Below are positions 26,122 through 63,946 of a stretch of DNA of 64,000 nucleotides, piece after piece. The DNA is taken from NCBI GenBank assembly GCA_948144175.1, contig CANXME010002559.1, positions 930,001 through 994,000 of the forward strand. Direction: 5' to 3'. The number at the start of each line of letters is the position of its first letter. Position 1 is the stretch's first letter. The position numbers and the translations under genes were made by a program. Source of the stretch: Closterium sp. NIES-65 (Eukaryota > Streptophyta > Zygnematophyceae > Desmidiales > Closteriaceae). The notes under the pieces were generated by a model. That model ran no database searches, was not told the DNA's origin, and saw only the letters and a list, made by a program, of their open reading frames with translations.

Positions 26122-26400
26122 TCAAAACCCAGAGGGTGGCCTCTCATCAGTAACAACAATGGGCCGCGGCTCGATTTCCCGTGGCCTCAGGTAGGGTCCC
26201 CTGCGGACCGCCTCAGCCAGCTGGTGTGATGCAAGAAGGGAGAGAAGGGGGGGAAAGAGGGGGACTAGGGTGATGGCGTTGGTGGTTGGCAGAAAGGGAG
26301 ACTAGGAATGTGGCCTCAGGTAGGGTCCCCTGCGCACCGCCTCGGCCAGCTGACGTGATGCAAGGAGGGAGGCCAGGGAGGGAGGGACAACGAGAGAGGA
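25960..26400 (-). repeat. PSMD5 exon 14 with flanking partial copies
   Basis: The true last exon (26220-26122) has an upstream copy of its acceptor and first codons (about 26358-26318; LAEAVRRGPYLRP again) and a downstream copy of its 3' half including the stop region (about 26040-25975). The flanking copies are partial and diverged. Confidence 0.7.
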
Positions 26401-29400
26401 CAGGGAATGGTGACTATAGGGATTGACTAGAGGGAGTGACTACCTCCAGTCACTACCCTTGGTTCTTTGTGCAAAAGCCAAGTTACTAGAGGGAGTGACT
26501 GACAGGAGCAGACTGACTGAGTGACAGGTGGCAGTGGCTGACAGGTGGCAGTGGCTGACGGGTGGCAGTGGCTGACCTGCGCAGTGCAGTTGAAGGAGAT
26601 GGATGCGTGTTGTGCCTCTGCTGCTGTTGACATGGCCACACAGCACGAATGCCTCCAATCCATGGCTGCCACGTGGCAGGGGAGGGTGAAGTGGGGAGGG
26701 ATGGGTAGCTTGGATACACGAAGGGCGTTGCATGTGGATCGTCAATGCCCCCCCAATGTCTCCAGTGCCCCCTCAATAGCCCCCCAACCGTCCAACAATG
26801 CACGCCCCGTCACCTGTTGTGCCACTCACCTGCTTTGTGCCTCTCCGCCCGAGCGTCTGTCACCATTTGCACCAGACCCCAGTCCCCACACAGCTCCACT
26901 GCTGCCCACTCTGTTGCCCACTCGCCTTAGCAACTTATCTGCTGTCTAGCCAAGGCACGGACCACCTCTGCTGCCACAAGCACACAGCACTCACGCTGCC
27001 TTCGTGCCCCTCACCTGCTTTGTGCCTCTCCGTCTGTGCGTCTGCAACCATCTGCACCAGACCCCAATCCCCACACAGCTCCACTGGCGCCCCATCTGTT
27101 GACCAGCCACTGCGCTGATCATCCCAGGAGAACGGCACACAGCACACACACCCCCATCCTGCCCCGCACATGTCGTGCCCCTCACCTGCTTTGTGCCTCT
27201 CTGCCTGAGCGTCTGTCACCATCTGCACCAGGCCCCAGTCCCCACACAGCTCAACTGCCGCCCACTCCCTCTCCACCACTGCTGCCAGCAGACGGTACAC
27301 CTGCAGGGGAAGAAGCACCAGCAGCAACGGCACAGACTCAAACACCACAGATAGATAGCACAGATAGGAACCACTGAGCTCCATTGCGGCCCATTCCCTC
27401 TCCACCACTGCTGCCAGCAAACGGTACACCTGCAGGGGAAGGGGTGGGACAGACGAACAGGCAGCAAATGCACAGCCAGACAGCCATGGTGAGAGGAACT
27501 AACGAAATCCACTGCCGCCCACTCTCTCTACACCACTGCTGCCAGCAAACGGTACACCTGCAGGGGAAGGAAAGCAGAGTTGCACTTAGCCACGCGAAAT
27601 AAGAGTGACAAAAGAGACGTCTCAAAAAACACTCTTTATTTCATGCTGCTGCCAGCAGATGGTACACCTGCAGGCAGTGACGCAGAGAAAAAGCAGAGAT
27701 GCACTTAGCAGAGAGGCGAACATGGCCCGACAAGCGCCCTGCTATAAATGGCATGAAGGTGTGTGTGCTACAGCAAGTGAGTGTGACTGTGGGACTCACA
27801 GCAACGCGAATCTCCTCAGAGCGCTTGAGCAGAGAGACGAACACGCCCTGCCAGGTGCAAGGCACAATCCCACGTGCCATGCAGCACCATGCCATACACC
27901 CACAACATGCCATACGATGCCATACCATGCCATGCCATGCCATGCCATGCCATGCCATGCCATGCCATGCCATGCCATGCCATGCCATGCCATGCTATGC
28001 CATGCCATGCCATGCCATGCCATGCCATACCATGCCATGCCACAGAGGAACCCAAAAACGAAACCATAACACATGGGTTATGTTCATTAGAACAAACAGA
28101 GGACACAATTGACGCCCTGGTGTCAACCAAGAGTTACTGAAGACATTAACCCGCCAATGACCGGGTAAAGCCCACAAAAATAACTTCAACAAACAACGAG
28201 TGAAATCCTGCAGGTGGAAAATGTTCTTTTGAGGGTCGTCATCAACAGAGGCTACTCACTCACCGCCAAGGTGGGTCCGCCTGGTGCTTTAGCTGCAGCA
28301 GCAAACGTCTCTTCCTTGAGCTTCGTCTCCCCATCGTCCCCCACCTCTAGATCCATCCCTCCCCCCTCTCCTCCCCCCTCATCCACCCCGCTGATCCCCG
28401 AGTGGGTGGCATGCACTGGCACAATCTGCACCGGCTCGCTCCCTTCCACCCTGTCTGCTCCGAAAACGGAAGCCAACGCGTGTAGAGAGGCCTGAGTGTG
28501 GGAAAGGGTGTGCAGGAATGTGGGGTGGGGTGGAGATGGTATGAAGAGTGGGTGGCATGCACTGGCACCATCTGCACCGGCTCGCTCCCCTCCACCCTGT
28601 CTGCTCCAAATACCGATGCAGATGCGCTCGCAGAAGAGAGGCCTGCAGAATAGGGGTGGCAGAAGGAGCAGAGGAGTGCAGTGCAGAGACGTGAAGGTTA
28701 AGAGTAGAGTAGGTGTGGTGTGGGTGGCATGCACTGGCACCATCTGCACCGGCTCGCTCCCCTCCACGCAATCTGCTCCAAAGATGGACGCCAGTGCAGA
28801 TGCGTGGAGGGGAGCGAGCCGGTGCAGCGAGGCCTGGAAGAATGGGGTGACAAAAACCACAGGGGAGCGCAGAGAATGGGGGAGCGCAGAGAATGGGGGA
28901 GCGCAGAGAATGGGGGAGCGCAGAGAATGGGGGAGCGCAGAGAATGGGGGAGCGCAGAGAATGGGGGAGTGCAGAGAATGGGGGAGCGCAGAGAATGGGG
29001 GAGCGCAGAGAATGGGGGAGTGCAGAGAATGGGGGAGCACAGAGAATGGGGGAGCGCAGAGAATGGGGGAGCGCAGAGAATGGGGGAGCGCAGAGAATGG
29101 GGGAGTGCAGAGAATGGGGGAGCGCAGAGAATGGGGGAGCGCAGAGAATGGGGGAGCGCAGAGATTTGAAGGTTAAGAGAAAGCATAGGTACATGCGCAG
29201 GCACCACCTGCAGGGGTGCGGAGCACTTGAGTGTGCAGGAGCAACGGGCACACAAGATGACTCACAGTGTGCAGGAGCAACGGGCACACAAGATGACTCA
29301 CAGTGTGCAGGAGCAACTGGCACACAAGATGACTCACAGTGTGCAGGAGCAACGGGCACACAAGATGACTCACAGTGTGCAGGAGCAACGGGCACACAAG

Positions 29401-30831
29401 ATGACTCACAGTGTGCAGGAGCAACGGGCACACAAGATGACTCACAGTGTGCAGGAGCAACGGGCACACAAGATGACTCACAGTGTGCAGGAGCAACGGG
29501 CACACAAGATGACTCACAGTGTGCAGCGAGGTGTGGGGACCGCAACCCCCAAAGGCACGCTTGAGAACAAAACTGATGATGTGGCGACGGGGGTTGAGCA
29601 GCAGCCGAGTGCCGTGTGTGGCTGGAGAATGAAAAGTGTTGGAGGGGGAGGGGAGGACGGGAGAGAGGCAGGCGGGGTGAGGGTTAAGGGGGAAAGGAAC
29701 AAGGTGTTAATTGTGGGAGAAGAGACAGGCAGGAGGAAAGGTAAGAGGGAGGCTTCGAAGTAGGCAGCTCCAAATCATAAGCAGCAACTCACAGCGTGCG
29801 TAGGTAGCGAGGGCATCGAAGAAACCTTCAACTGTCTCAGCCGGTACGTGCTGCTCACTGCGCCCCCATGCCTCACATAGGCTATTAAAGAGTGCTGCCA
29901 CCTCGTCCGCCTCTGAATCACAGGACGGGGGATGTAAGAGAAAAAGAGAGGGTAAAAGGTCTGAGGACGCAGCATCGAGAGGTACACCTTTACGTGCTGC
30001 TCACTGCGCCCCCATGCCTCACATAGGCTATTGAAGAGTGCTGCCACCTCGTCCGCCTCTGAAGGACTGTGAGAAAAAGGAGGAGAGAAAGAGAGGCAAC
30101 GGCATGAGGATGCGGCCTTGAGAGGTACCCCTCCCTCCCCGCGCTCCTCACTGCGACCGCGTGCTGCTCACTGCGCCCCCATGCCTCACATAGGCTATTG
30201 AAGAGTGCTGCCACCTCGTCCGCCTCTGAAGGACAGCACAGGGAAAGGGAGGAAAGGGGAGTGGAGTGAACCAACAAGAGAGGGGTGTGAGCTGAGTGCA
30301 GTTGACCCACAAAACAGATCCTCACTGCGAATTAATGCCTTACATAGGCTATTAAAGAGTGCTGCCACCTCGTCCGCCTCTGAAGCACAGGGGAGGGAAA
30401 GGGCAAGAAATGCAAGGAAGGCTGGTAATCCAACTTCAAACCATCCTTCAACTCGCATCTCACTGCGCCCCCAGCGGAAGAGCTGGCATGGCTGTTCGAT
30501 AGCCATGCCCCACACACATGCTATCGAACAGCACTGCCCCCTCTTCCGCCTCTGAGGCACAGGGGAGGGAGGGAGGGAGCAACGAACAGGGAAAGACCGA
30601 CAGGGAAAGAGAGGTGGGCATATAAATGAGATGAGAGTACAAGGGGCGTGCAGATCAAGGTGTGGGAACAGTGCATACAAGTCAAGGTCAGAGGAGGCAC
30701 GTACGGATTAAGGTGAGGGGAGCCATGACTCCTGGTGTGGCAGGCGAGGTGAGGCGCGCGGCACACTTGAGAGCAGCCGGCAGGAGCAGATCCAGGCCCA
30801 AATGCAACGATGATTCTGCTGGTCGTGCTGC

Positions 30832-30868: not shown

Positions 30869-33861
30869 TCTCCTTCTGTTGTTGCCAGTGCTGGCGTGGA
30901 TGCCTTGGTGCAGATCTGAACGAGTGCCTCGTGAATCTCGTCGATGCGAGGCTCTAGCAGCTCCACACCCACCCTGCTGCTCGTGAACTGGCAGGCACAT
31001 AAGGAACGCAGCAGAATGCAACGTAAGGGGGATGAGAAGGAGGGCTCGCCCAGTGATTGGTCTAGATGCTGTCTGCGTGTGAGGGTCAAGCAGCTTTTCA
31101 CGCCTGCTCGTGAACTGGCAGGCAGGCACGTGTGGAGTGGGGGAAGGAAGCAGAATGCAATCAGGTTTGCACAGACGACAAAGAAATATCAGGTTTGCAC
31201 GGACGACAAAGAAATAAGCAGGAAAGCTTGTTTCCAGAAAAAATCTGGAACGATGCCCAGAGGTGGAAACTGTACCTCTGAGACGAGTTCACATGCTGCA
31301 AGAGCCGCCAGTGCATCTCCCCCCTCCTCACTTGCACCTGCCCTAGTACCACCTCCCCCTTCCGTTCCACTGACTCCCATCCCTGCCACTCCTTGCAGCT
31401 CTGCGACCAATGGTTGCAGCAGATCCAGCTTCTCAACTGCTGACATGGCGTGCTGCGACTGGTTGGCCAGACGCAGTGCTGCTTCCACCACTCGTTGCTG
31501 CACCTGGCGAGGAGAAGCCAATGTGAGCAAGGATAGAAACAGGGGGGATTGGTAAAAGCACCTGCGAATAAGAACAGTGTGCAAGTGAGTGATGGACAAG
31601 AGCAGTTGTCCCTTTGAAAAAGAGAAGAACTTAATCGAAGGGACAATGAAAGGCAACGATAGTGGCCAGAAAGGTCAGAGAGAAACTGGTGGACAAAGAA
31701 GGAACAAAACAAGTCGACAATCTGGTTAGTAATAAGGTTCTGCTCAAGAAACTAAGGCAGCACAACCAAAGATGGAAGCCCCCGGATATACCTGTGAGTG
31801 CGACGAGCGTGTGAGCTTGTACAGGTGATCACTGCTGAAAATGAGGCTCTGAAAGGAATTGCAGGATGGGAGCACCGCGAGACAGAGGGATTGTGAAGAG
31901 TGAGGAATTTAAAGGTGGTGTGAAATTGAGGGGAATGTGTTAACCTATCCGAAATTTGGACAGATTCAAATGTGCACTTTCACACAAGCTCACACAACAC
32001 ACAGGCTCCACACACCCCGCCCAATCGTCACACACCCCATACATGGCAATCATAGCAGAAGGGTGATCAGCAGAAGGCAGCGAAGGCGTCAGTGGCAGCA
32101 GCAGCCACTGGCAGGTGCTCGTCGCCCAAGCACCGCATTGCAACGCACCAAACCATGTCACACGCTTCTAAACCACAAACTCACATGCCCAGAATCCAAC
32201 GTACCACTCCCAAGGCCGATCGGCAGAAGGCAGCAAGTGCGTCAGTGGCAGCAGCAGCCACTGGCAGGTGCTCGTCGCCCAAGCACCGCACCAAACCCTC
32301 CCCCACCACTCGCCGAGCCACTTCCCCTTGACTCCCAAGCTCCTGCAGCTCCTCCTCTCCCCCCTCAGCCATGCGTTGAAGCTGAGGGGGGGAAGGCAGG
32401 GGCACAGGGACAAATGGAGGGAAAATCAAGGGGGATGCATTGTTTTCTGGGCTATATTGACAGAAAGTATATAAATAAATTAATTAATAAATACATAAGG
32501 ACAGAAATACAGTCAATGGTAAGACTGAGCGGCGCATGGATGTGGTGTGTTTTGAGCTTACCGCAAAGCAGCAGAGACGGCGCATGTCCGGGGCGGGCGA
32601 GAGCATCCCTTTCTCCGCGTATGGCTGCACATGCATACCGCAGCAGAGGCACAGGAAACGACTAATGGCACATGTCTGGAGAGTGAGAGAAACAAAAAGG
32701 ACGGGAGAGAAAACACACAAACGCCGCCTGCACACTCAGAAATTGGCTTATGATGCAACGTGCATGAAGAAAGAGCTTGCATGTGAACGGTTCTGATGTG
32801 TGAACAGCAGTAGAACCCACCACAAGGCTTGGAAGGACGGGAAGAACGACATTGGACTTGAAAACCCTAAAGAGTGCCTGCACGGCTGCCTGCTGTAGCC
32901 TCACTGCAGCCTCTGACTCCTCTAATACCCCCCTCTCCTTCTCGCCCTCCTCCTCCAATCCCTCCATGCCACGTGTCTGGGATGGTGGCCCAGAGTCTAA
33001 TGCCCTGAAAGGTAGAGAGCAGTGGACTTGAAAAGCTGCTAATGAACGGAATTCAGTGTGCAGGTGCGCAGGGCATTGCAGTGTGCTGTGCAGTGGTCGG
33101 AAATGGGAGATCTGAAGTGTACAGTAGACGACAAATTGCACATTACAGAATACTTCGCACCATGTACATGATAGTATGAATGTGCAGTGTACCTGAGGAT
33201 GAGCGGCAGGGGGAAGCTGCTCAAGAAGGCAGTGACTGACCCATCATCCGATGCTGAGAGACGGGGAAGATGAAAGAAAGGAGCAGCGTAAATAATGTCG
33301 TAAAAAAAGAAGTCGGACGTAAGAACAAGCGAATCTGACGAATCAGGGAGGGTTCTGGGACGTCTCAAACTCGTCCTAACAGAAGTAGGGAGCGCTCCGA
33401 GCCCTGAAAATCACTCTGTCCAGAAATTCACACGAAATGAAAAGGCTCACCATGAGTTCATACGGCTCAACATGAGTTCATACGACTCACCATGAGTTTA
33501 TACGGCTCACTATGAGTTTATACGGCTCACCATGAGTTCATACACGTCTCTGATGAAAAGATGTTGATCGAACCATCAGCATATAGAAGGTGAAAGTTCA
33601 GAGAAGCTCTCGACGGAATCAAGCGCGCAATAGCTCTTCCAATAAACATTCTTCCAAAAAAAACACGCTGTAGGTGCGTGGATGATGGTGGTGGCTTACT
33701 CAGGTTGCTGACCAGGTCTACTGAAGCCTCAACGACGACATCTAAAAACCAGCTAGGTGCGTGGATGATGGTGGCTTACTCGGGGTGCTGACCAGGTCTG
33801 CTGAAGCCGCAACGAAGGCGTCTACATCGAGCGGTCGCTCCTCCGATGCCAACGGTCCCAT
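26122..33861 (-). CDS. PSMD5: 26S proteasome assembly chaperone PSMD5 (S5b) homologue
   Basis: Fourteen exons (minus strand): 33861-33780, 33253-33193, 33004-32821, 32675-32562, 32381-32205, 31848-31792, 31503-31276, 30987-30705, 29912-29793, 29621-29518, 28491-28264, 27300-27186, 26665-26577, 26220-26122. Phases agree throughout, giving 646 residues. PSMD5 is a HEAT/ARM-repeat chaperone that binds the Rpt1-Rpt2 base during 26S proteasome assembly and is not in the mature particle. Recognisable blocks in family order: FLSSFPLPLIL at the N-terminus; EKGMLSPAPDMRRL and RCLGDEHLPVAAAATDAL; YRLLAAVVEREWAAVELCG near the end; and EAVRRGPYLRPREIE at the C-terminus, as in plant members. It is longer than the ~500-residue relatives, mainly from low-complexity inserts (poly-Ala in exon 8, Gly/Glu-rich in exon 11). 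Introns are crowded with partial exon copies. Exon choice among echoes is inferred from phase and completeness. Confidence 0.85.
26525..26577. repeat. 18-bp tandem repeat at the exon 13 donor of PSMD5
   Basis: Three copies of an 18-bp unit built on GGTGGCAGTGGCTGAC directly follow the end of exon 13 in its transcription direction. The unit resembles the donor junction (CAG/gtcagcc on the minus strand). Confidence 0.7.
26826..27680 (-). repeat. partial copies of PSMD5 exon 12 on both sides of the true exon
   Basis: The complete exon is 27300-27186. Upstream in transcription are three acceptor-side copies (starting near 27437, 27560 and 27674) that keep CCTGCAG plus the first codons (VYRLLAA) and then diverge; the one at 27560 has an early TAG. 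Downstream are two donor-side copies (ending near 27006 and 26826) that keep the ELCGDWGLVQMV part and the GTGAG donor. Confidence 0.85.
27920..28042. repeat. (CATGC)n pentanucleotide microsatellite
   Basis: About 20 near-perfect copies of a CATGC pentamer in PSMD5 intron 11. Open frames across it, such as runs of HAMPC or AWHGM, are products of the repeat. Confidence 0.95.
28400..28860 (-). repeat. partial copies of PSMD5 exon 11 acceptor side
   Basis: Three versions of the exon start (GCCTC...GTGGAGGGGAGCGAGCC...) occur, starting on the minus strand near 28835, 28640 and 28491. Only the last continues into the long Gly/Glu-rich exon ending at a GTGAG donor at 28264. The first two keep an acceptor and the SEPVQMVPVHATH segment before diverging. 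Confidence 0.85.
28866..29164. repeat. 17-bp minisatellite in PSMD5 intron 10
   Basis: About 17 copies of GCGCAGAGAATGGGGGA with rare single-base variants. The 17-bp period cycles the frame, which explains the long repetitive open frames on both strands; they are not genes. Confidence 0.95.
29231..29518. repeat. 36-bp x 8 repeat containing the PSMD5 exon 10 splice donor
   Basis: Eight nearly identical 36-bp units directly follow exon 10 (29621-29518) in transcription direction. Each repeats the exon's last bases and donor (CTGCACACT/gtgagtc on the minus strand). There are no spacers, so it is not a CRISPR array. Confidence 0.95.
29985..30553 (-). repeat. four acceptor-side copies of PSMD5 exon 9
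   Basis: Besides the full exon at 29912-29793, four upstream copies start near 30551, 30380, 30226 and 30059. Each keeps a pyrimidine tract, CAG and the first ~60-75 bp (ADEVAALFNSLCEAWG), then diverges. The three nearest the true exon are almost identical over the shared part. Confidence 0.9.
30475..30548. repeat. imperfect inverted repeat inside the most distal exon 9 copy
   Basis: Two ~30-bp arms read GCGGAAGAG...GCTGTTCGATAGC on the plus strand and on the minus strand, separated by a short CA-rich loop. The distal exon 9 copy was thus partly rebuilt as a hairpin. Confidence 0.75.
32060..32160 (-). repeat. donor-side partial copy of PSMD5 exon 5
   Basis: Repeats the RCLGDEHLPVAAAATDA part of exon 5 (32381-32205) downstream of it, then diverges into a stop. 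It lies in intron 5. Confidence 0.8.
33440..33545. repeat. ~22-bp tandem repeat in PSMD5 intron 1
   Basis: Five copies of a unit close to CTCACCATGAGTTCATACGG. No coding role. Confidence 0.85.
33680..33735 (-). repeat. donor-side partial copy of PSMD5 exon 1
   Basis: Repeats the end of exon 1 and its donor (GCTGACCAGGTCT... in plus-strand reading; true version at 33755-33810), placed downstream of the exon in transcription direction. Confidence 0.8.
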
Positions 33862-35575: not shown

Positions 35576-38500
35576 ATGACCGAACCTCGCCTTGTGAAAT
35601 CCGCTTCCGCGATGAGCTTAGAAGCCGAGCCTTTACGTTCGGAACATGTAAGATCACCATCTTCACCGTACGACACGCCTCGGAAGCCAGAAAAAGAGCC
35701 ATGGCGACCGCATCGCGCGTTTCGTCAAGCCGTTCAGGACATTTCCAACATCAAACAGCAGGCGTCGCAAGTCATCGACAGAATCAGCGGCGCTGCCGGA
35801 ATCGGACCCAGACAAGGTTCATCTGGGGGTGGAGGTCAGGGTTTCTTCGGTTCTGGGTCCTCCCCTCCTCGAAATTCCTCAGACGCTTTTTCATCCATGG
35901 CAGGTTACATGAGCGAATCTGAGCTCCTGGGGTGGGAGACTATTATACGCAGTCCTAGAGATGGAGCTGCTGCGACCGGCGGCGCAGGGCAGCTGAGCGC
36001 TAGTTTAAGTACGCAGGAGCGCGCTGGCGGGAAGTGGATTAAGGAGCTCTCGTCGATGGCTAACGTGGTTGTTGGCCGATGCGCGAGGTATGCACCGTGC
36101 AGCTCGTTTCTATTGATTCGTAGAAATCCGTTGCATGTCGTAAGCTGTTCACGCGACGCTGCTGCTCTTTATCCGAATTTCTTCCCATCTAACCGTATTA
36201 AGCATCGTCACTTCAGACTAATTCATCACGTAATTCACCTGGTAGCGTCCGCGCTATATCCCACCTTCCGTTTTTCCCGTTCCAGAGTCCTGATGCTCAA
36301 ACCGGAGGAGCTAAAAGCGAATTTCGAGGAGGAGGCGCCCGCGAGCGCGCGAGAGCCCGCGCGGTACGCGCGCAATTTCCTCGAGTACTGCTGCTTCCGC
36401 GCGCTGGCCGTGGCGACGCAGGTGACTGAGCACCTCAAGGACAAAGACTTCCGGCGCTGGACGTTCGACATGATGCTCGCGTGGGAGGCGCCGGGAGCGT
36501 CGAATCAGCCCACAGGACAGGTAGGGTATGGTTCGGGTTCGAATGTTGTAAGGACCAGCGTTTTCCCTCTGGAAATTTTTTTCTCTGGTGGGCCTGTGAG
36601 AGCTGCTGGTGTTTGGTGGACCGTGATGCTCGCGTGAGGGGTTGCAGGCGCAGCCAATCAGCTGCCTGGACAGGTAGGGGTCTGAGGTGCCTTGGGATCT
36701 CCTGGGGCCTTGGGGATTTCCGCGCGCTGGCCGTGGCGACGCAGGTGATGGAGCACCTCAAGGACAAAGACTTCCGGCGCTGGACGTTCGACATGATGCT
36801 CGCGTGGGAGGCGAGACTCGCCAGGTGGCCACGATGGCCAGGTGGCCGTCATGGAATCAGCCCACGGGACAGGTAGGAAGTGATGGATAGCAATTTGTGC
36901 ACGAACATGGATAACAGTGTGTGCATGAACATGGATAGGGTTTGTGCACGAACATGGATAGCGGTTTGTGCAAGAAGATGGATAACGGTGTGTGCATGAA
37001 CATGGATAGCGGTGTGTGCATGAACATGGATAGCGGTGTGTGCATGAACATGGATAGCGGTGTGTGCATGAACATGGATAGCGGTGTGTGCATGAACATG
37101 GATAGCGGTGTGTGCATGAACATGGATAGCGGTGTGTGCATGGATAGCGGTGTGTGCATGAACATGGATAGCGGTGTGTGCATGAACATGGATAGCGGTG
37201 TGTGCATGAACATGGATAGCGGTGTGTGCATGAACATGGATAGCGGTGTGTGCATGAACATGGATAGCGGTGTGTGCATGAACATGGATAGCGGTGTGTG
37301 CATGAACATGGATAGCGGTGTGTGCATGAACATGGATAGCGGTGTGTGCATGAACATGGATAGCGGTGTGTGCATGAACATGGATAGCGGTGTGTGCATG
37401 AACATGGATAGCGGTGTGTACATGAACATGGATAGCGGTGTGTGCATGAACATGGATAGCGGTGTGTGCATGAACATGGATAGCGGTGTGTGCATGAACA
37501 TGGATAGCGGTGTGTGCATGAACATGGATAGCGGTGTGTGCATGAACATGGATAGCTGTGTGTGCATGAACATGGATAGCAGTGTGTGCATGAACATGGA
37601 TAGCAGTGTGTGCATGAACATGGATAGCAGTTTGTGCATGGTCGTGGAGAACCGTGTGTGCATGAACATGGATAGCAGTTTGTGCATGGTCGTGGAGAAC
37701 CGTGTGTGCATGAACATGGATAGCAGTTTGTGCATGGTCGTGGAGAACCGTGTGTGCATGAACATGGATAGCAGTTTGTGCATGGTCGCGGACAACCGTG
37801 TGGGCATGAACATGGATAGCAGTTTGTGCATGGTCGTGGAGAACCGTGTGTGCATGAACATGGATAGCAGTTTGTGCATGGTCGTGGAGAACCGTGTGTG
37901 CATGAACATGGATAGCAGTTTGTGCATGGTCGTGGAGAACCGTGTGTGCATGAACATGGATAGCAGTGTGTGCATGGTCGTGGAGAACCGTGTGTGCATG
38001 AACATGGATAGCAGTTTGTGCATGGTCGTGGAGAACCGTGTGTGCATGAACATGGATAGCAGTTTGTGCATGGTCGTGGAGAACCGTGTGTGCATGAACA
38101 TGGATAGCAGTGTGTGCATGGTCGTGGAGAACCGTGTGTGCATGAACATGGATTAGCAGTTTGTGCATGGTCGTGGAGAACCGTGTGTGCATGAACATGG
38201 ATAGCAGTGTGTGCATGGTCGTGGAGAACCGTGTGTGCATGGACATGGATAGCAGTGTGTGCATGGTCGTGGAGAACCGTGTGTGCATGGACATGGATAG
38301 CAGTGTGTGCATGGTCGTGGAGAACCGTGTGTGCATGGACATGGATAGCAGTGTGTGCATGAACATGGATAGCAGTGTGTGCATGAACATGGATAGCAGT
38401 GTGTGCACGAACATGGATAGCGGTGTGTGCATGAACATGGATAGCGGTGTGTGCATGAACATGGATAGCGGTGTGTGCATGAACATGGATAGCGGTGTGT

Positions 38501-41500
38501 GCATGAACATGGATAGCGGTGTGTGCATGAACATGGATAGCTGTGTGTGCATGAACATGGATAGCAGTGTGTGCATGAACATGGATAGCAGTTTGTGCAT
38601 GGTCGTGGAGAACCATGTGTGCATGAACATGGATAGCAGTTTGTGCATAGTCGTGGAGAACCGTGTGTGCATGAACATGGATAGCAGTTTGTGCATGGTC
38701 GTGGATAGCGGTGTGTGCATGAACATGGATAGCAGTGTGTGCATGGTCGTGGAGAACCGTGTGTGCATGAACATGGATAGCAGTTTGTGCATGGTCGTGG
38801 AGAACTGTGTGTGCATGAACATGGATAGCAGTTTGTGCATGGTTGTGGAGAACCGTGTGTGCATGAACATGGATAGCAGTTTGTGCATGGTCGTGGAGAA
38901 CCGTGTGTGCATGAACATGGATAGCAGTTTGTGCATGGTCGTGGAGAACCGTGTGTGCATGAACATGGATAGCAGTGTGTGCATGGTCGTGGAGAACCGT
39001 GTGTGCATGGACATGGATAGCAGTGTGTGCATGGTCGTGGAGAACCGTGTGTGCATGGACATGGATAGCAGTGTGTGCATGGTCGTGGAGAACCGTGTGT
39101 GCATGGACATGGATAGCAGTGTGTGCATGAACATGGATAGCGGTGTGTGCATGAACATGGATAGCGGTGTGTGCATGAACATGAATAGCGGTGTGTGCAT
39201 GAACATGGATAGCGGTGTGTGCATGAACATGGATAGCTGTGTGTGTATGAACATGGATAGCAGTGTGTGCATGAACATGGAGAGCAGTTTGTGCATGGTC
39301 GTGGAGAACCGTGTGTGCATGGACGCGGATGCCCGCCTGGTCCCACCATCCCACTGATGGCTCACATTCACGGCCGTCTCGAAGTTCCTCCATACTTTCC
39401 CCTCACTCTCCTCACATTTCACTCCTCGCCATCTCCACCCCTACTCAGATGGACGTGGAGAGCAGTGTGTGCATGGACGCGTTTGGCCACCTGCCTCCAA
39501 CCAGTTTTTTAAGAAACAGACACCGCTCCCCGTCTGCCTGTCCCTTCCTCCCCCCTTTCCTTCTCAGATGGACGTGGAGAGCAGTGTGTGCATGGACGCG
39601 TTCGCCCGGCTAGCTCCAGCTATCCCGCTGGTGGCGGACAGTGTGACGGTGCACGCACTCTTTGAGCTGCTCACCGACGAGTGCCAGGGCGGCCGCCTTC
39701 CCTTCGCCATCTACAATAACTACCTCAGCGAGCTCGAAAAGTGAGCAAACTCGAAAAGTGAGCAAACTGCTTGATTTTGAGGAACACGAGTGTTTCTGTT
39801 GTGAAACGTATGATACTAGGTCTTCAAGTAGTGAGGGATGACAAATAACTGATCAAGAGTGAGCATTATCTGGTTAAAATCGTATTTGTCGTCTCCCCCT
39901 CCCCCTTCCCCTTCCTTTTCGAACAGAACTGTGAAGACAATAAAGAACTCCACCACTGGAGCGTTGGCATCGGCTCTAGGGATAGTGAGGGGCGAGGAGG
40001 CAGTGATAGAGACGGACGGACAGGCGACACAGCCGGTGCTGCAGCACATAGGCGTCAGTGCCTGGCCAGGTGGGAGCTCAATTCGACCTCTGTATTAGAT
40101 TTTAGGGTTTGGTCATCAGGGTTTCGTTGGGCCTTGGGATGGTGAGGGGCAAGGAGGCCAATGGTAGGGATGGATGGGCAACGACGCAGCCAGTGCTGCA
40201 GCACATAGGCGTCAGTGCCTGGCCAGGTGGGAGCTCAATTCGACCTCTGTATTAGATTTTAGGGTTTGGTCATCAGGGTTTCGTTGGGCCTTGGGATGGT
40301 GAGGGGCAAGGAGGCCAATGGTAGGGATGGATGGGCAACGACGCAGCCAGTGCTGCAGCACATAGGCGTCAGTGCCTTGCATTGCCGGCTCGTACAACGC
40401 AGCAAAGAAGTTTTACCTGATGCCACGCCATCTCACTCCTCCCCACCCTACCAACTCTTTCTGCAATTTCTCTTCCAATTAGGTCGGTTGACCCTCACGG
40501 ACTGCGCCCTATACTTCGAGCCCAGTGGTGTCGTCTCGTACGACGCAGCAAAGAAGTTTGATTTGGCCGCAGACCTCCATCAGACAGTCAAGCCGGACCT
40601 CACTGGCCCGTGGGGGGCGAAGCTGTTCGACAAGGCCATCATGTACAAAAGCCATGCCATGTAAGTCAACCCTCAATCCCTGAACCTCTGAACCTCTGAA
40701 CCTCTGAACCTCTGAACCTCTGAACCTCTGAACCTCTGAACCTCTGAACCTCGAAACTCGAGATGCTGAGCCCTAGGCAGTGGTTAGGACTGAGTGTGCC
40801 GTAAAGAAGATTGATCTCACAGCACAGCATACATCCACCAGACGGTTCTGGAGTTCTTGGGGCTGCCAACACACATTTACTCGCAGCTTCACTAACCACT
40901 GCCCCCCTTTTGCCCTTCCACATTCCAACCTTCCCACCCATCCCACCGATGGCACCCTTCTCTCTGCTGGTCTGTCACCTTTTCAGATCCGAGCCTGTCG
41001 TTCTGGAGTTTCCAGAGCTAACCGCACACGTTTACTCTGATCGTCACCAACATTTCCCCTTTGCTCTTTCACGTCCCTCCCACCCATGGCACCCTTCTGT
41101 CTGTTGGTCTGGCGCCTTCTCAGATCCGAGCCTGTGGTCCTAGAGTTCCCAGAGCTAACAGCACACATGCGGAGAGACTATTGGCTGTCCATCATCCGCG
41201 AAATCATAGCCGTCCATTCCTTTGTCCGGACCTACAAGCTAGAAGGTCCGGCTCGCAGGCAGGCTATAGCCAAAGCCGTGAGGGGTATAGCGCGACTTAA
41301 AGCCGTGTGGAGCTTACAAAAAGCCCTCCCTACCACCCCTGAGAGCCTCCTAACTTTCATTGCAGCAGACGAGCTCCCGAGCGGGGATAAAATCTTGCGG
41401 GCCATGGCGGGCGTGCTTAAGGCGGACTCGGGCAGCCCGAAAAAGGAACGAGAGCAGCTGGAGAAGCTAGGGGAGTTGGCTGCCGCTGCTGTGAGAAATG

Positions 41501-43163: not shown

Positions 43164-43169
43164 CCATCC

Positions 43170-56700: not shown

Positions 56701-56786
56701 CCAAGGCACTTGCGCCTTGTGATCATCAGCGTTGTTGCACGCAGTTGGGTCTTGTGCCTGTCTTGCCTCACTTGCTCTCCTCTTGA
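50775..56786 (+). CDS. copia Gag-Pol polyprotein
   Basis: One frame of 2003 residues from the ATG at 50775. Order: Gag (1-~240); Gly-rich stretch (~270-345) and Gln run; an unusual zinc-knuckle-like Cys/His cluster near 410 (spacing C-13-C-3-H-4-C); protease with LDSGASRSFF (~533); GAG-pre-integrase HHCC zinc finger (LWHHRLGHP, ~688, with CVPC); integrase core (MDVWGPA, VVDDYSRY, LHSDRGGEFSSG, NGIAERR; ~755-880); a Pro/Gly-rich linker with a GGAEP 5-residue repeat (~1045-1140); reverse transcriptase (LDFSTAFLQGSLHEE, YILVYVDDLVF; ~1500-1740); RNase H (HADASWADD, SSCEAEIYA, ~1847-1960). Integrase before reverse transcriptase defines Ty1/copia. All catalytic motifs I checked are present, so the element looks autonomous. 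Confidence 0.97.
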   Translation: MATPNVLTFDAEGRAIDFAVWIEDLQLYLLCDAIDEVSLFDFVSGAVPAPPADADSAVRSKWATRDAAARLAVRRHLPSSERAHFSQCKSAQALYDAVVARYSSPSSATLSRLMLPFLFPDLASFPTVADLVTHLRASDTRYRAALPAEFRAANPPPMYITLYFLVTRLPESLRVVRDQFLSVCPTTLTVDLLEESLLAAEKSIVAVGASRGDPRTPIFEGCGPSPLLPSVASAAAADLTGFESVGAASAPSGRRRSGKSKGGRGAGGARGGGGGGGGGGGGSGGGGGGGGGSGGTGGGGGGGGGGGGGSGGGGGSGGSDGPGGGGGGGDGGGGGGGGGGGGGGRSGSSQRSSSGGGQRQQQQQQQQQPQQQPQQQQRSRTVPGPQQLREWYLQRQRGGALGPCPYVLRTGDRAGERCGGAHTARRCFGRLTDAWRQQFPEAAEIPRWGELSRAGVAIYDLDFDAILSAMYAVTGSDEDDCYRCFPPDPGIGTAASGTSEAAALGASASVLSGAGESALSGTVSASASHTFTLDSGASRSFFRDRTTLTPLSRPVAVSLADPSGGPVLSRFSTVLPCPAAPSGTLTGLYLPSFSTNLVSGADLQDAGVHQFTPARQRVTHCTEADTGRHLATFTRRPGSSLYTLTTASPPGAESGRVPSSGQVFAAASRSGPESAPCSCRRLSHETLLWHHRLGHPSLLRLRGMASRVLVSGLPRSLPPLPPGPGPTCVPCVEGRQRAAPHSSQFPPTEAPLQTLHMDVWGPARVRGQGQERYFLLVVDDYSRYTTVFPLRSKGEVTAVLIDWIRAARLQLRRSFGSDFPVLRLHSDRGGEFSSGLLSAYCRARGIRQTFTLPDSPQQNGIAERRIGMVMDVARTSMMHAAAPHFLWPFAVRYAAHQINLHPRVSRPETSPALLWTGKVGDASAFRVWGSRAFVRDLSADKLSPRASPCVFLGFPPDAPGWQFYHPTSRRVLSSQDVTFDESVPYYRLFPYRTPSLPPPPLFLVPGPPPVVPLPPQGPAPSGVSQVDAVEPFEVTGDSGAAAGAEPGGAESGGAEPGGAEPGGAEPGGAEPGGAEPGGAEPGGAEPGGAEPWGAVPRGAEPGGAASGGAEPGGAEPGGAVPGGAEPGGAVPGGASSRREPLSPQELREWFARRWRCAAGAGGSSAAEGTAASRPAGARTVGAGAAGSESSPGAGATEGVGAEPAVGGPTDSAPGAAAGGSGASGGAAGGAAGVGTPAGAAGTVPAVSGVAARPRPYFVPLLQQVLGLPPPPPPPLEGPQPVRSQPQLQPASPLPAPSPYTGPTGGLTERREPASRPVSPVRTERASGRGSRQRPPPVPGTHRMSLRPSTAPLRAPLPSPPASSLPALADPESDSLRAASPTVTRLLATAVTDPSFESSAASALVTELVDFAARCRLDYAARLVTESESACPPSVGGECALGTDVLEDRQEEFQCLAAASPRLASVLLAPEGDPDAPDIPTPRSYAEAIEGPYSSQWQAAMDAEMASWKSTGTYVDAVPPPGANIVSGMWIFRVKRPPGSPPVFKARYVARGFSQRQGVDYFQTFSPTPKMTTLRVLLHVAAHRDYELHSLDFSTAFLQGSLHEEIWLRRPPGFTGSFPPGTQWSLRRPVYGLRQAPREWHDTLRTTLAALGFAPSTADPSLFLRTDTSLPPFYILVYVDDLVFATADTAGLAYVKSELQKRHTCTDLGELRSYLGLQITRDRARRTITLTQSHMVQQVLQRFGFTYSSPQATPLPTRHSLSALPSDESVESSGPYAELVGCLMYLMTCTRPDLAYPLSILARYVAPGRHRPEHMAAAKRVLRYLCSTSGMGLVLGGRSPVVLTGHADASWADDQATQRSSQGYTFSLGSGSVSWRATRSSSVLGSSCEAEIYAGAMAAQELRWLTYLLTDLGEQPRSPPVLYVDNKAMLALCREQRLEHRTKHIALRYFLARELQQRGQLRLAYVASEANTADVFTKALAPCDHQRCCTQLGLVPVLPHLLSS
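53911..54180 (+). repeat. 15-bp coding repeat (Gly-Gly-Ala-Glu-Pro)
   Basis: About 16 copies of a GCTGAGCCTGGGGGT unit in frame in the integrase-RT linker of the young copia polyprotein. Confidence 0.95.
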
Positions 56787-58199: not shown

Positions 58200-61100
58200 A
58201 TGGTTGAAATTGAGGAAATTGAGGATACACGGGTCGAGAATAGTTACCTTCAAAGTACAGCCGCTCAGAATACAACGTCGGCGGCCAGGATCGCAACTGG
58301 GGATGCGGGAACCGTTGGGTCAAGATCAGGAAGTGGATCTGACGGAGCCAAGGTTGCCGGAGAACCGTCGGATTTAGGAGGCGATGGACGGCTATCCTCG
58401 GCTGCGGGTTTCGAGGCGAGTCAAAACGGCGCTGCTGGGAGTGGGTCGGGGGCGGGAGGCGTGAAGGCGGGGGAGAAGGAGGAGGAAGGAAGAGGGGAGT
58501 CCGCGGGGGGAGGGGGGGCAGAGCGGGAAGGAGTGAAGGCGAGGGGAAAGGACTCCGCGGGGGAAGGGGAGGCGGAACGGGGAGGGGAAGACCTTCCTGG
58601 GGAGCAGGGTGGATTCAAAGATGCGCTCAGCGACTTGGCGGGGACTGGCGGAGAGGCGGCAGCGGGTGAAGAGGCGGAAGAGGTGTTCGAGGATGCGCTG
58701 ACAGAAGAAGAGCTGCGCAAGGTGAGCGGAAGTGAGGTGGGGGGAAAGGGGAATGGAGGGGGGAGGGGGAAGGTGGAAGGGGGAAGGTGGAAGGGGGAAG
58801 GTGGAAGGGGTAGACCCTAAAGGTGAACCGTGAGAGGGCGGAAGAGGTGTTGGAAGATGCGCTTACAGAAGAGGAGCTGCGCAAGGTGAGCGAAGGGAGG
58901 GGTGGGGGAAGGGGAAATGGGGAGAGGGGACGTGGAAAAGGGAACCAGGAGAGGGCGGAAGAGGAGTTTGAAGATGCGCTTACAGAAGAGGGGCAGCGCA
59001 AGGTGAGCGGATAGCGGGGGGGAGAGCGGAAGGGAAAAAGGGGAAGGTTGAAGGGGTAAGGGGGAACGGGAACCTGGAGGGGGAGGAAGGGGGAAGGAGA
59101 AGCGGATCAGGGGGAATCGGGAAGAGGTGGAGAATTCCGCTCAGAATGCCGCTTCTCCTTCCCGCTTCTCCATGCCTCGAGTTCAGGTTGACTCGACAGA
59201 AGTTCCGCAAGGTTAGCGGAATGGAAAATTCTGATTTGAGGCAGTTGCGTCTTCATAAAACTCCGTAATTCTGCACTCACAACTTGTTGTTCCCCTCCTT
59301 TCCCCTCTGCCCCCCATCCCACCCCTCCTCTTTCCTCACGCCTCCCCTCTTCTCCCCCGCCCCGCCTTTCTCCTTGGGTGTATCTTTTTCCAAACGTTTT
59401 CATCGCGCATCCCGGCCGTTCAGAAAGCTCTGGCGGAAGCAGAGGTGATTAAAGCGAGGGGGAACGAGGAGTACAAGCGGGGTGACTATAACGCAGCCCT
59501 GGAGAGCTACAGCAACGCGCTGGCAGCGGCGCCTGGGGCGGAACATGCAGAGGCGAAGGAGTCACGAGCGATTTACCATGCCAACAGAGCCATGTGCCAC
59601 CTGCAGCTGGTGAGTTTTTGGAATTTCCAGTTGGTGGGATCTCGGGCTGGTGGGGTGGGGGCTCCCGAGGAAAGCTGGCAGCAGCGCCTGGGGCGGAGCA
59701 CGCAGAGGCGAAGGAGTCACGGGCGATTTACCATGCCAACAGAGCCGTGTGCCACCTGCAGCTGGTGAGCTTTCGAAGTTCCCCACTTGCAGGGTCTTGT
59801 CTTGCAATCTGGCAGCAGCGCCTGGAGCAGAGCTTGCAGAGGCGAAGGAGTCAGGGGCGATTTACGATGCCAACAGAGCCATGTGCCACCTGCAGCTGGT
59901 GAGAGAGCGAGAGAGCTGTTAGTTTGGCCACTTATAAGGCTTTGAGAAATTTCTATAAGTCACGTGCAGTTGGAGAGAGGAGTTGATTGGGGCTTGAAAA
60001 GTCACACCCATCACCAGAAGCTGGCCTTTTCCTCCTGCTCCTCACACTCCCTTTCGCCCTTGGTTTTTGCAGAAGGATTATGATGCGTGTGTTACAGAGA
60101 GCACAGCAGCCATTGATCTGAAGCCGGACTATGTGAAAGCGATCATGCGACGAGCACAGGCATGGGAGAAGCTGGACAAGCTTGAAGAGGCGCTGGGAGG
60201 TGAGTGGGACATCAATGTTTTGTGTTTCTGGAAGGAGAAAAGTGCATGTGTGGATGGAAGGGGTATGGAAGCTGGACTGTGTGAAGGCGATCATGTGGCG
60301 TGCACAGGCATGGGAGAAGCTGGACAAGCTTGAAGAGGCGCTGGGAGGTGAGTGGGGCTCTTACTGAAGCCTTTGAGTTTCTGCGAGGAAAGAAGCGCAT
60401 GTGTGGATGGAGGGAGTGTGGATGCTGGGCTATGAGAAGGCAATCATGCGGCGTGCACAGGCGTGGGAGAAGCTCGAGAAGCCAGACGAGGCGCTGGGAG
60501 GTGAGTCGGGGGCTAGGAGCCAACCAACCAGGATCATGGATTCGTGAGTTTTACGTGAGTTTTACGGAAGGAGACAGATGCATGTGACTTCATGGGTTTT
60601 CTTGAAAATGCTCCAAGTACGCCTGTTTTATTTTGGAAGGGGACTGATGCATGTGTTTCCACATGCATGGGAGGGGAGGGAGTGAGCCAGTTAGGCTGTG
60701 TGAAGGTGATCATGCGGCGTGCACAGGCGTGGGAGAAACTGGACAAGCTTGAAGAGGCGCTGGGAGGTGAGTGAGTGCGGCTTGAAGCCAATCAACGAAC
60801 CTTGAAACATATTGTGGAAGGAGAGGGATGCATGTGTGGAGAAAGGGAGTATGGCAGTTGGGTGTGTGTGGCGGCAGTTTTTCTGGGCTCTGGATTGCCG
60901 TGGTTCTGTAGCGGAGCTATGTGAAGTGAAAGCCATTATGCAACGGGTCCAGGTGTGGGAGAAGCTGGAGAAGCTGGAAGAGGCGCTGGGAGAGAGTGAT
61001 GTGTGGTATGTGGAGCGTGGTAGCTGGGTTATGTGAAGTGAAGGCAATGATGCGCTTGTATGTCATGTTTGTCTTTCTCCTTTGCACTCTTTTACTACCT

Positions 61101-61602
61101 ACCTCCACCACCCATCCTAGATTATAAGAGAGCGTTGGAAGTGGACAAAACCAACGCACTAGCGAGAACCACACATTCCTTTGCACCTTTTTACTGCCTA
61201 CCTCCACCACACATCCCAGATTATAAGAAAGTGTTGGAGGTGGACAAAACCAACGCACAAGCCAGATCATCTGCCAGGCGATTGGAGCCCATTGTCGAAG
61301 AGAGGAGGGAAAAGCTTAAAGAGGAAATGTTGGGTAAGTGTTGTGGTTTTTCACTGGACCTTGTTTCCTCGCTACGGTACCTCTATGTCGAGTAAAATTT
61401 TTTTCCTCGCTACGGTACCTCTATGTCGAGTAAAATGCGTGATTCGGTTTTTTGTGGTTTCTGTCTTTCGTTTGTGTGCGATTCAGGCAAATTGAAGGAC
61501 CTTGGGAACTCCGTTTTGGGCCACTTTGGAATGAGTGTTGACAACTTCAAGGCTGTGAAGGACCCTAAAACCGGCTCCTATTCCATTTCTTACCAAAGCT
61601 AA
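58200..61602 (+). CDS. TTC1: TTC1-like tetratricopeptide repeat co-chaperone
   Basis: Exons 58200-58721, 59424-59609, 60073-60199, 61220-61333 and 61487-61602, phases consistent, 354 residues. The N-terminal ~170 residues are acidic and low complexity, ending EEVFEDALTEEELRK. TPR motifs follow (KARGNEEYKRGDYNAALESY; TAAIDLKPDYVKAIMRRAQA; DYKKVLEVDKTNAQARSSA), then the hallmark C-terminus RRLEPIVEERREKLKEEM and FGMSVDNFKAVKDPKTGSYS, as in TTC1 and its plant homologue. TTC1-family proteins bind the tails of Hsp70/Hsp90. An in-frame TAG five codons upstream in the pre-insertion sequence (44222-44224) supports this ATG. The copia stack inserted 7 bases before the ATG, so the original leader is 14 kb away. 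Introns carry many partial exon copies. Confidence 0.88.
58832..59003 (+). repeat. two donor-side copies of TTC1 exon 1
   Basis: The exon 1 end (GCGGAAGAGGTGTT...GAGCTGCGCAAG/gtgag) is repeated at about 58837-58887 and 58955-59001, each with a donor and about 110 bp apart. Purine-rich filler separates them. Confidence 0.9.
59680..59900 (+). repeat. two donor-side copies of TTC1 exon 2
   Basis: The exon 2 end (GCAGCGCCTGG...CACCTGCAGCTG/gtgag) recurs at about 59681-59764 and 59814-59899 after the true exon end at 59609. Confidence 0.92.
60270..60995 (+). repeat. four donor-side copies of TTC1 exon 3
   Basis: The exon 3 end (GCATGGGAGAAGCTGGACAA...GCGCTGGGAG/gtgag) recurs at about 60288-60349, 60440-60501, 60705-60767 and 60935-60990, each with intron sequence resembling the first. 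The last is most diverged and ends GGGAGAGAG. Confidence 0.92.
61110..61170 (+). repeat. acceptor-side copy of TTC1 exon 4
   Basis: CCTAG/ATTATAAG...ACCAACGCACTAGC repeats the acceptor and first ~45 bases of exon 4 (true start 61220), with the upstream CTACCTCCACCA tract duplicated too. Confidence 0.9.
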
Positions 61603-61986: not shown

Positions 61987-63946
61987 ATGGTGTCCCTAGA
62001 AGCCGCTCACGCGAACCAGGACGCGCTCCTGAAACGATTCACTGTAAGCACTGCCGTCGGCATTATCAAGGTCTGCATGGTCAATATCGGAACGTCTCGC
62101 GCGAAACTGTGAGCTCTTTTTTCGGCAATATCAAGGTCATCATTGCCGTCAAGAGGATGATGTCGTAGGAATCGCTTATGCGACGCAAAACGCCTGTGAA
62201 AGCCTTTTTAGGGCAATGCCGATTCAAGTTTTAGTTCGTCGTCGCCAGGGTTTCGCGAGAGCGTCGTTGTGTCGTTAGAACCGGCTCACGCGAAGCAGGA
62301 CGTTCTCCTAAAACGATCCAATGTGATTCCATGATTACCGATTTTTATGCGTTTGTTGCGGGATCCGGCATTATAGTCTGTCTGTCATTAGAGTTTGTTA
62401 CAACTCTTCAGTTGGTCGCACCCAGTCCTCCTTTTCACGGGGATTTTCATTCATTCATGGGGGTTTGAGGTGACTTTTGAGTCGACTCAAAAGTCACCTC
62501 GGGATTTTCTTTCATTTATGGGGGTTTGTTGTCACATCCGACGGTCCTTGCAGTGAATTTGATTTAATTTGATTTGGTTTGATTTGGTTTGATTGGATTT
62601 GTTGCTTCCCGCGTGGCTGGCAGGAGCTGGGTATCACGTACCAACTCTACTCGCATCCACCGGTGCTTACAGTAGAGGAGCAGGCTGCACAGGTGACAGG
62701 AGCTACAGGGGAGACTCTTGAGTCGACTCAAAAGTCCTTTGCTTTGTTGCTTCCCTCGTGGCCTGCAGGAGCTGGGTATCACCTACCAACTCTATTCGCA
62801 TCCACCGGTGCTTACAGTAGAGGAGCAGGCTGCACAGGTGACAGGAGCTACAGGGGAGACTCTTGAGTCGACTCAAAAGTCCTTTGATTTGTTGCTTCCC
62901 GCGTGGCTGACAGGAGCTGGGTTTCACCTACCAACTCTATTCGCATCCGCCGGTGCTTACAGTGGAGGAGCAGGCTGCACAGGTGACAGGAGCTACAGGG
63001 GAGACTCTTGAGTCGACTCAAAAGTCCTTTGCTTTGTTGCTTCCCTCGTGGCCTGCAGGAGCTGGGTATCACCTACCAACTCTATTCGCATCCACCGGTG
63101 CTTACAGTGGAGGAGCAGGCTGCACAAGTGACAGGAGCTACAGGGGAGTTTACCAAGAACCTTCTACTTAAGGTAAGATGTATTTCTCTTTCATCCCCCC
63201 TCTTGAGTGAATCATGGCTCTGCTTTCTCCCCTGGTCTATGTTCATTTTCTCAATCCTCGACCTTGCACCGGATTCGGCACCGTCACCTGAGTGCATTTC
63301 CTCAATCCGTTTGTGAATGCGTTGTGGCAGGACAAGAAGGGTCGGCTGATTCTCATCTCTGCACTCACCAAGACCAAGATTGATCTCAAGTGTAAGGATG
63401 CTTCGTCACTGCTCTATACCTGACCCATGCAAACTGTACACCCCACTTTTGTGTCGTCGAAAGTGTACACCTGACCACAGTGCTGCAGGGGCTTTCACAG
63501 AGGCTGGGACTGGCCTTCGATTCACGGACACCCCTGTTTTGAGTCGACTCAAAACAAGGCTGGGACTGGCCTTCGATTCACGGACACCCCTGTGCTGTTT
63601 CTGTCTGTTCGTCTTGTGCTTTCTCCCTTCCTCCATCCCAGTCCTGTCACAGATGCTGGGACTAGGCAAGGGCGGGGGGCCAGGCGAGAGCCTGACTCAA
63701 GAAGGACTGTGCTGCGCTGCGCATAGTCCTCTCATAGTCTCTCAAGAAGGGAAATGCTGCTTTGATTCAGTCAGGGGCACCCGTGTATTGTTTCTCTGTG
63801 TCCTCTGCCGATTCCTCAGTGCTGTCGCAGAGGCTGGGGCTGGGCAAGGGAGGATTGCGCATGGCACCAGACGAGAATTTGGCTGCGGTGCTGCAGGTGC
63901 CTGCTGGCTGCGTGACTCCTCTGGCGCTCTTCAACGATTCTGCCAA
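61987..63946 (+). CDS. YbaK-domain prolyl-tRNA deacylase (ProXp/PRORSD1 type), 3' end beyond window
   Basis: Exons found: 61987-62043 (MVSLEAAHANQDALLKRFT), 63059-63172, 63331-63391 and 63820-63946, phases consistent; the last donor (GCCAA/gtgag) shows the gene continues. Conserved family blocks: LGITYQLYSHPPVLTVEEQA, GEFTKNLLLK joined to DKKGRLILISAL, Leu-rich LSQRLGLGKGGLRMA, and GCVTPLALFNDSA. The motifs TKNLLL and GCVTPLAL belong to the YbaK editing fold, which hydrolyses mischarged tRNA (typically Ala-tRNA-Pro) as a free-standing proofreading enzyme. Three upstream copies of exon 2's acceptor side and two of exon 4's lie in the introns, so exon choice rests on completeness and phase. Confidence 0.87.
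62235..62325 (+). repeat. decayed copy of YbaK-gene exon 1
   Basis: Repeats the CTAGGGTTTCGCGAG...GCTCACGCGAA..CAGGACG..CTCCT.AAACGAT sequence around exon 1 (61970-62045) with substitutions; its ATG is lost. Confidence 0.85.
62467..62500. repeat. 34-bp perfect palindrome
   Basis: Perfectly self-complementary, with core TTTTGAGTCGACTCAAAA and arms extending to GAGGTGAC/GTCACCTC. The 12-bp core TGAGTCGACTCA recurs near 62719, 62864, 63009 and 63539. Confidence 0.97.
62600..63058 (+). repeat. three acceptor-side copies of YbaK-gene exon 2
   Basis: Units of ~145 bp start near 62626, 62769 and 62914, each with a GCAG acceptor, the ELGITYQLYSHPPVLTVEE coding start, then a GAGACTCTTGAGTCGACTC linker in place of the exon end. 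The complete exon is the fourth, at 63059. Confidence 0.95.
63470..63730 (+). repeat. two acceptor-side copies of YbaK-gene exon 4
   Basis: The exon 4 start (CAG/TGCTG...CACAGAGGCTGGGACTGG) recurs near 63478-63520 and 63635-63680 before the true exon at 63820. Between them GGCTGGGACTGGCCTTCGAT is itself duplicated around the GAGTCGACTC core. Confidence 0.88.

Follow-up and report, generated by a model that had tools for sequence, protein, structure and literature searches.

In plants, tandem duplications can arise from paired nicks. Exon stuttering on avian dot chromosomes, described by Hron et al. in 2026 as novel and of unknown mechanism (PMC12954441), is the closest described counterpart of the arrangement reported here, nothing closer having been found in a search of the open-licence literature. 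In birds, 190 of the 236 affected introns lie on dot chromosomes, where 3.4% of introns are affected; the exon parts of the stutters have a median length of 36 bp and the expansions a median of 4 copies, and stuttering has been reported in birds and, as unpublished data, in gerbils (PMC12954441). In the potato RdRp gene, a duplication across an acceptor generated a new spliced intron, as confirmed by RNA-seq (PMC4974935).

The window analysed here, a stretch of 64,000 nucleotides from Closterium sp. NIES-65, is part of contig C2261 in an assembly of 874,075,685 bases and 2,400 contigs. Its exon-edge copies, and those found elsewhere in the same genome, are of the same kind as the stutters of birds, as set out in the parts of the avian account drawn on here: lateral parts of exons are copied tandemly, together with their donor or acceptor, into the adjacent intron as local imperfect repeats of tens to hundreds of bases, alleles differ in length (here, two haplotypes of one assembly), and the coding exon stays intact (PMC12954441). 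The first-pass annotation, which knew of no description of such a process, was therefore wrong on this point. The two cases differ in that the host here is a non-vertebrate, 46 of the 82 tested edges are affected, the exonic parts are longer and the copies, as a rule single or few, lie about 150 bp away (PMC12954441). Homology that ends at the splice site and runs of synonymous changes near the edge are seen here and are not described in those parts of the bird account (PMC12954441). As in the present copies, the potato duplication is a tandem one that crosses an acceptor, with splice signals inherited from the parental copy; it concerns a single gene and a new intron, whereas the copies here appear to stay inside existing introns (PMC4974935, in the parts drawn on). 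Here stuttering is seen outside the vertebrates, in several gene families that are unrelated to one another, and there are signs of recombination between copy and exon.

The window, its second haplotype and its exon-edge copies

Contig C1757 is taken as the other haplotype of the window on the strength of its alignment: it is colinear with C2261 at 99.4% identity across 57127-84000 (window plus flank) and 98.8% identical to window 40133-49715, with lower, patchy identity (67-97%) from 26 to 37 kb. The stretch at 49.7-57.1 kb is absent from this colinear alignment, so that the Copia-type retrotransposon, whose open frame of 2097 codons occupies 50493-56786, may be a polymorphic insertion. A frame at 44795-46333 gave weak helix-turn-helix and DDE transposase matches, and a 48-bp minisatellite (36896-39322; about 51 copies, 94% matches) shares its stretch with two long open frames (36939-38156 and 38146-39357) in the period-48 repeat. 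GC content per 2 kb ranges from 0.47 to 0.72, and a scan of the window for known RNA families returned none at gathering score. The exon models are predictions, guided by domain matches together with splice consensus and an open frame. Among the gene names proposed earlier, Pfam matches bore out DUF639 (PF04842, a family that Pfam labels plant protein), the YbaK-type tRNA-editing domain (PF04073) and the TPR repeats of the TTC1-like gene; the name PSMD5, one exon of which was without a Pfam match, was not borne out, a 181-residue stretch of the gene so labelled giving weak armadillo/HEAT-like repeat matches and nothing more.

Self-comparison of the window showed local copies to be abundant at 25.9-33.8 kb and 58.6-63.2 kb (Table 1). 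Fifteen segments lying wholly in the window were picked from the self-comparison matches and probed, some of them unproven as exons (e.g. 36395), and 14 of the 15 had further copies, 27 beyond the first, which agrees with the earlier count of more than 25. Copy numbers in C1757 equalled those of the window except at segments 28402 (3 copies in the window vs 6), 27254 (3 vs 2) and 63820 (1 vs 2). The array at 29795..30563 has in C1757 an extra donor-side copy that is absent from the window. In the YbaK array the units are 94-96% identical and their homology runs across the splice site.

Table 1. Coordinates of exon-edge copies, palindromes and inverted copies (positions are those of the window unless a contig is named)
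Feature	Position	Strand	Basis
Two copies, offset 129, gene labelled PSMD5	26181..26383	-	Self-comparison, probe counts
Three copies in each of two overlapping families (probes 26819 and 27254)	26804..27576	-	Self-comparison, probe counts
Three copies; six in allele C1757, mostly 144 bp apart	28400..28793	-	Self-comparison, probe counts
Full exon, about 29795-29917 (by eye), with four acceptor-side copies	29795..30563	-	
Acceptor-side copies of exon 29795-29917	30000-30063, 30167-30236, 30321-30391, 30503-30563	-	
Two copies, offset 153	32059..32290	-	Self-comparison, probe counts
Exon end with donor, two copies	33660..33824	-	Self-comparison, probe counts
Two copies, offset 137, adjoining and inside an open frame whose later part matches DUF639	40938..41166	+	
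Exon end plus GTGAG donor, three times, upstream of the TTC1-like TPR exons	58673..59011	+	
TTC1-like exon 59424-59609 with donor-side copies 59675-59769 and 59809-59903	59424..59903	+	
TTC1-like exon 60073-60199 with four donor-side copies	60073..60992	+	
Donor-side copies of TTC1-like exon 60073-60199	60277-60354, 60430-60506, 60696-60773, 60926-60992	+	
TTC1-like exon 61220-61333 with acceptor-side copy 61078-61167 upstream, offset 99	61078..61333	+	
Perfect palindrome of 34 bp, abutted on each side by a 27-bp direct repeat	62467..62500	+	
Array of period 145 in the YbaK-type gene: complete exon start plus three acceptor-side copies	62598..63148	+	
Core TTGAGTCGACTCAA, one per YbaK array junction	62718-62731, 62863-62876, 63008-63021	+	
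Perfect palindrome of 22 bp, abutted on each side by one of two identical 34-bp repeats	63535..63556	+	
Inverted copies of kinesin exons	C511:712945-713361, C1725:169179-169595, C1052:556971-557362		

Edge copies in other genes and their excess over random placement

A search of the genome for the chaperonin family gave 93 matches. For three chaperonin genes these included a further, incomplete match on the side expected, and did so in each haplotype (C43/C1794, C1626/C1647 and C1052/C1420). Nine loci were fetched, and exon models were set by hand for eight chaperonin loci and the TTC1-like gene of the window. Each edge was probed within 1 kb with 60 exonic and 40 intronic bases at a score threshold of 50, the maximum among 656 alignments of probes against unrelated loci being 44; edges less than 45 bases from a locus end were left unprobed, and locus L056 contributed no edge. 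In these nine gene models an upstream copy was found at 26 of the 42 acceptor edges and a downstream copy at 20 of the 40 donor edges, and copies on the wrong side at 2/42 and 2/40, respectively. The layout claimed in the first-pass annotation, acceptor-side copies upstream and donor-side copies downstream, thus holds, and its value as a sign of targeting does not, because a tandem duplication across one splice site necessarily places the copies on these sides.

The nearest copy lies 117-190 bp away at 37 of the 46 edges, with a median offset of 152 bp, and the exonic part averages 81 bp (37 measured cases). Across these 37 cases, with offsets up to 200 only and the eight-copy array L052 A5883 left out, the length of the exonic part is negatively correlated with that of the spacer (r -0.57), the sum of the two having a standard deviation of 20 vs 31 expected under independence; the correlation arises partly from truncation, since offsets were limited to 200 or less.

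In six gene models, 42 of the 68 edges had a copy, and their introns, 21,705 bases in all, held 11 duplication clusters confined to intron sequence; the ratio is 3.8 where random placement of 120-175 bp units predicts 0.40-0.64. Edge-spanning copies therefore exceed random placement six- to ninefold, and the claim that copies are commoner at exon edges than random tandem duplication would make them is upheld. Two of the three intron-only clusters of locus L050 sit where the model probably misses exons. Copies are also common away from known edges, which counts against targeting: local copies were found for 149/305 intron probes (many of these being the edge copies themselves), for 109/226 probes from 36 kb of C1757 that lack annotation and for 32/146 in window 34-58 kb, with 3/153 in the transposon-rich window 1-25000. 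They were found also for 34 of 55 fully exonic probes, because the copies extend far into exons.

At the level of protein profiles, the same layout appears at the HSP70 loci C2039/C957, with at least three and at least two donor-side copies, at C501/C1682, with one acceptor-side copy among the matches listed, and at kinesin loci (C1673; C1440 and C2165); most other HSP70 and kinesin matches among those listed were without it. Of the genome-wide duplication process proposed in the first pass, its spread over many exons, several gene families and further loci stands; targeting to edges may still play a part but finds no support in the geometry and the copies away from edges. That the copies enlarge introns and multiply splice sites is supported. 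Smaller repeats occur as well, units of about 19-20 bp that hold an exon end with its donor and recur right after the exon (L055 3347-3500; L049 about 280-340), and some kinesin exons have partial copies in inverted orientation, on the opposite strand and within about 90 bases.

Where homology ends and how copies differ from exons

In copies whose exonic identity is under 96% (28 at acceptors, 26 at donors), identity stays at about 0.85 right to the edge and falls to near background beyond it, with 0.46 vs 0.35 shuffled at acceptor flank -10 to -6 and 0.43 vs 0.30 shuffled at donor flank +6 to +10. The same was found for most copies of at least 0.94 identity outside L052 A5883 (n=13): 10 of the 12 with a measurable flank lie within the null 95%, the two above it being L052 D333+173 and L055 A1338. 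Over all pairs compared, exon-copy flank identity was not above the null 95% in 46 of 58 (a count by strict inequality puts 13/58 above), and intron flanks of copy-copy pairs were above it in 5 of 21. The young arrays L052 A5883 (eight copies counted), L052 D333 (one) and YbaK are homologous on both sides of the splice edge; the first of these was omitted from the spacer, substitution, run, clustering and flank-pair (58, 21) comparisons. Spacers match only their own array among the sequences compared. The majority of copies match the exon at 80-97% identity, short of a perfect match. Splice dinucleotides are retained in 34/38 acceptor copies and 27/30 donor copies, the total of 30 including a copy that runs off its locus. 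Plain neutral decay of a duplicated intron and exon was rejected for many copies, in which an exonic identity of 0.94-0.98 stands beside null-level flanks, and is further disfavoured by the few exonic indels (20 vs 495 substitutions). Skipped mini-exons were likewise rejected, since acceptor-side spacers do not start with GT (by eye); one donor-side spacer ends in AG (by eye).

The differences are concentrated at third codon positions. In 60 pairs they amount to 84/1623, 76/1614 and 334/1611 at positions 1, 2 and 3, or 328 synonymous, 163 nonsynonymous and 3 stop changes, where neutral expectation is 0.283, 0.692 and 0.025. Base composition was rejected as the cause, as the excess persists for each base (for A, 41/893 at positions 1+2 and 73/168 at position 3), and copy-copy pairs behave likewise (70/1026 vs 130/505). 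Read-through or coding use of the copies was rejected too, because 18 of the 20 indels in exonic parts are not multiples of three and shift the frame. The synonymous excess is strong within 60 nt of the edge, where divergence is 0.041-0.053 at positions 1+2 and 0.181-0.247 at position 3, and is gone past 80-100 nt; at 100-130 nt the values are 0.161 and 0.146, and the inner differences look neutral. The edge itself is not the highest point, position-3 divergence being 0.211 at 0-15 nt vs 0.247 at 15-30. At 11 multi-copy edges, with only the two copies closest to the exon counted per edge, changes unique to the youngest copy number 14/525 at positions 1+2 and 10/259 at position 3, those of the next copy 18 and 39, and those of the exon 3 and 16. 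Copies therefore decay neutrally from birth, as the near-neutral changes of the youngest show, and the excess of synonymous changes belongs to older splits between edges that once coded. Runs of altered third positions are found at L055 D513 (-26 to -8) and L054 D2961 (-60 to -3), and a synonymous run at 44-56 nt in L055 A3171 -299; differences are clustered at p<0.05 in 8 of 48 pairs, with a pooled Fisher p of 0.0004 over pairs that are non-independent.

Comparison of haplotypes gave direct signs of copy-exon recombination, one case being clear and one probable. In the clear case, a CCT1-like gene, L027 has a 136-bp acceptor-side copy and L026 is without it; the L026 exon matches the L027 copy in its edge and flank (GCA ACC) and, further inward, the L027 exon (AAT, CGC, CTT), and the L026 haplotype looks like a contraction chimera. 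The L027 copy differs from its exon at 6 of the first 66 bases and the flank upstream differs between the haplotypes by 4 substitutions in about 600 aligned bases (by eye), so that the copy is older than the haplotype split; a new duplication in L027 is therefore less likely than recombinational loss in L026. In the probable case, the gene labelled PSMD5, the intron flank of the donor-side copy in C1757 resembles the flank of the window exon, and the C1757 exon itself is then followed by a sequence different from the flank of the window exon (both by eye). This would fit a contraction in the window haplotype, the alternative being an insertion in C1757. Length thus varies between two haplotypes of one assembly by 3 vs 6 copies, by presence or absence of the 136-bp copy and by presence or absence of the donor-side copy.

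Explanations of the copies and the palindrome family

With a probability of roughly 0.5, the copies are exon stuttering that arises when tandem duplications of about 150 bp happen to cross splice sites, followed by unequal recombination between copy and exon. Such a duplication would be tolerated since normal splicing can still proceed from the copy that adjoins the remainder of the exon, and the other copy would turn into intron. Exon and copies would go on recombining in their shared exonic stretch, by contraction, expansion or conversion, with the splice edge and its intron flank acting as modules that move between a working and a silent position. Exonic parts would remain alike, intron flanks would drift irreversibly to zero homology and the outermost codons would gather synonymous changes with the amino acids kept; no function of the copies would be required. 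Duplication and exchange of this kind would account for the neutral young copies, the alike exonic parts, the lost flank homology, the synonymous runs near edges and the haplotype pair. The excess at edges may reflect survivorship, the sole account that this reading has for it, with the constrained exon and recombination keeping the exonic part recognisable, and a tie between the unit of about 150 bp and the size of a nucleosome is only a suggestion. Against duplication with recombination, the flanks of copy-copy pairs are mostly non-homologous, unlike simple array copying, pairwise clustering is weak, and position-3 divergence does not peak at the edge; exchange with the exon should also show directly, yet it does so in the one clear and one probable case.

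More tentatively, the stutter copies may form a standing reserve of splice edges, from which unequal recombination would swap splice site, outer codons and flank with their counterparts at the functioning exon. Turnover of splice sites and of intron ends would then proceed through module exchange with the protein unchanged, and the expected footprint is edge divergence that is synonymous only, beside intron flanks without homology.

It is doubtful that the duplication itself is anchored at the splice site, one end of the copy being fixed there and 45-130 bp of new sequence lying between copy and exon, in a process linked, for example, to transcription, R-loops or splicing. The end of homology at the splice site is what such anchoring would produce, both in the copies of at least 0.94 identity and in the exon-copy flanks at large, and the six- to ninefold edge excess and the array-specific spacers are in line with it. 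However, young arrays are homologous across the edge, the trade-off between exonic part and spacer points to the unit of about 150 bp as primary, and the resemblance of the C1757 donor-side flank to that of the window exon argues that flanks are not fast-mutating by themselves.

Retention of the copies by selection, as alternative or decoy splice sites or as an edge reserve, is unlikely: the near-neutral changes of the youngest copies and the frame-shifting indels speak against function, and the retained splice dinucleotides, which might seem to favour it, are about what a divergence of 9% allows (our own estimate, from 495 substitutions in 5,296 bp). The synonymous excess, strongest near the edge, remains in its favour.

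An insertion of a palindromic mini-element with a long target-site duplication, making the copies, is improbable. Such a palindrome family does exist, with the perfect form TTTTGAG-N4-CTCAAAA; TTTTGAGNNNNCTCAAAA has 30,327 exact genomic sites, vs 4 for the reversed control. In a sample of 231 kb that includes allelic copies and arrays, 38 of the 41 perfect palindromes with arms of at least 9 share TTTGAG-N4-CTCAAA (Markov controls 0, 0 and 1); N4 is mostly TCGA, ACGT, AATT or GCGC, and the arms past the core vary by site. The family is seen also in C1757, L051, L053, L054 and L058-L065, and at L049 4343-5384 the palindrome GTTTTGAGACGTCTCAAAAC occurs 14 times, in most cases 52 bases apart. Direct repeats of 18-196 bp abut the palindrome on both sides at 13 of 29 clusters, compared with 119 of 2000 random positions, and in 13 locus pairs 2 of the 16 listed length differences consist of repeat-palindrome-repeat vs a single repeat (L022/L023 and L033/L034). 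As in a transposable element, there are thus many sites, direct-repeat flanks and, at two loci, an empty (single-repeat) allele. These repeats and alleles, and the core in all three YbaK array junctions, are what an insertion origin of the copies has in its favour; against it, the core is present in just 5 of 34 spacers of 92%-identical two-copy duplications, and the exon-edge spacers inspected are without it (by eye). As a general cause it was rejected, the exon-edge spacers lacking the palindrome except for YbaK and a secondary insertion in L054. A string search of the literature returned no 18-mer of the palindrome among the matches listed. The palindromic repeats of Volvox organelles are likewise short, abundant and apparently selfish, in a green alga; they are organellar, whereas those here are found in multi-gene contigs that carry spliceosomal genes, and direct repeats often flank them (PMC2670323, in the parts drawn on). 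Template switching in rad27 yeast makes perfect palindromes (PMC5677150, as far as drawn on), a lead for the palindrome only.

An assembly artefact, to which tandem repeats are prone, is highly improbable, as the agreement of C1757 with the window in copy number argues, and as two separate contigs per locus have the same copies with the same divergence, most of them short of identity with the exon.

The palindrome with its surrounding direct repeats is a second system worth a study of its own. A genome with stuttering at about half of the tested edges and with two assembled haplotypes would give a much better chance than the bird case of observing births, contractions and exchanges of the copies, and it would also suit the study of intron growth and of splice-site turnover that leaves proteins unchanged. 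If edge modules really swap places, this would be a route of intron-end evolution beyond point mutation.
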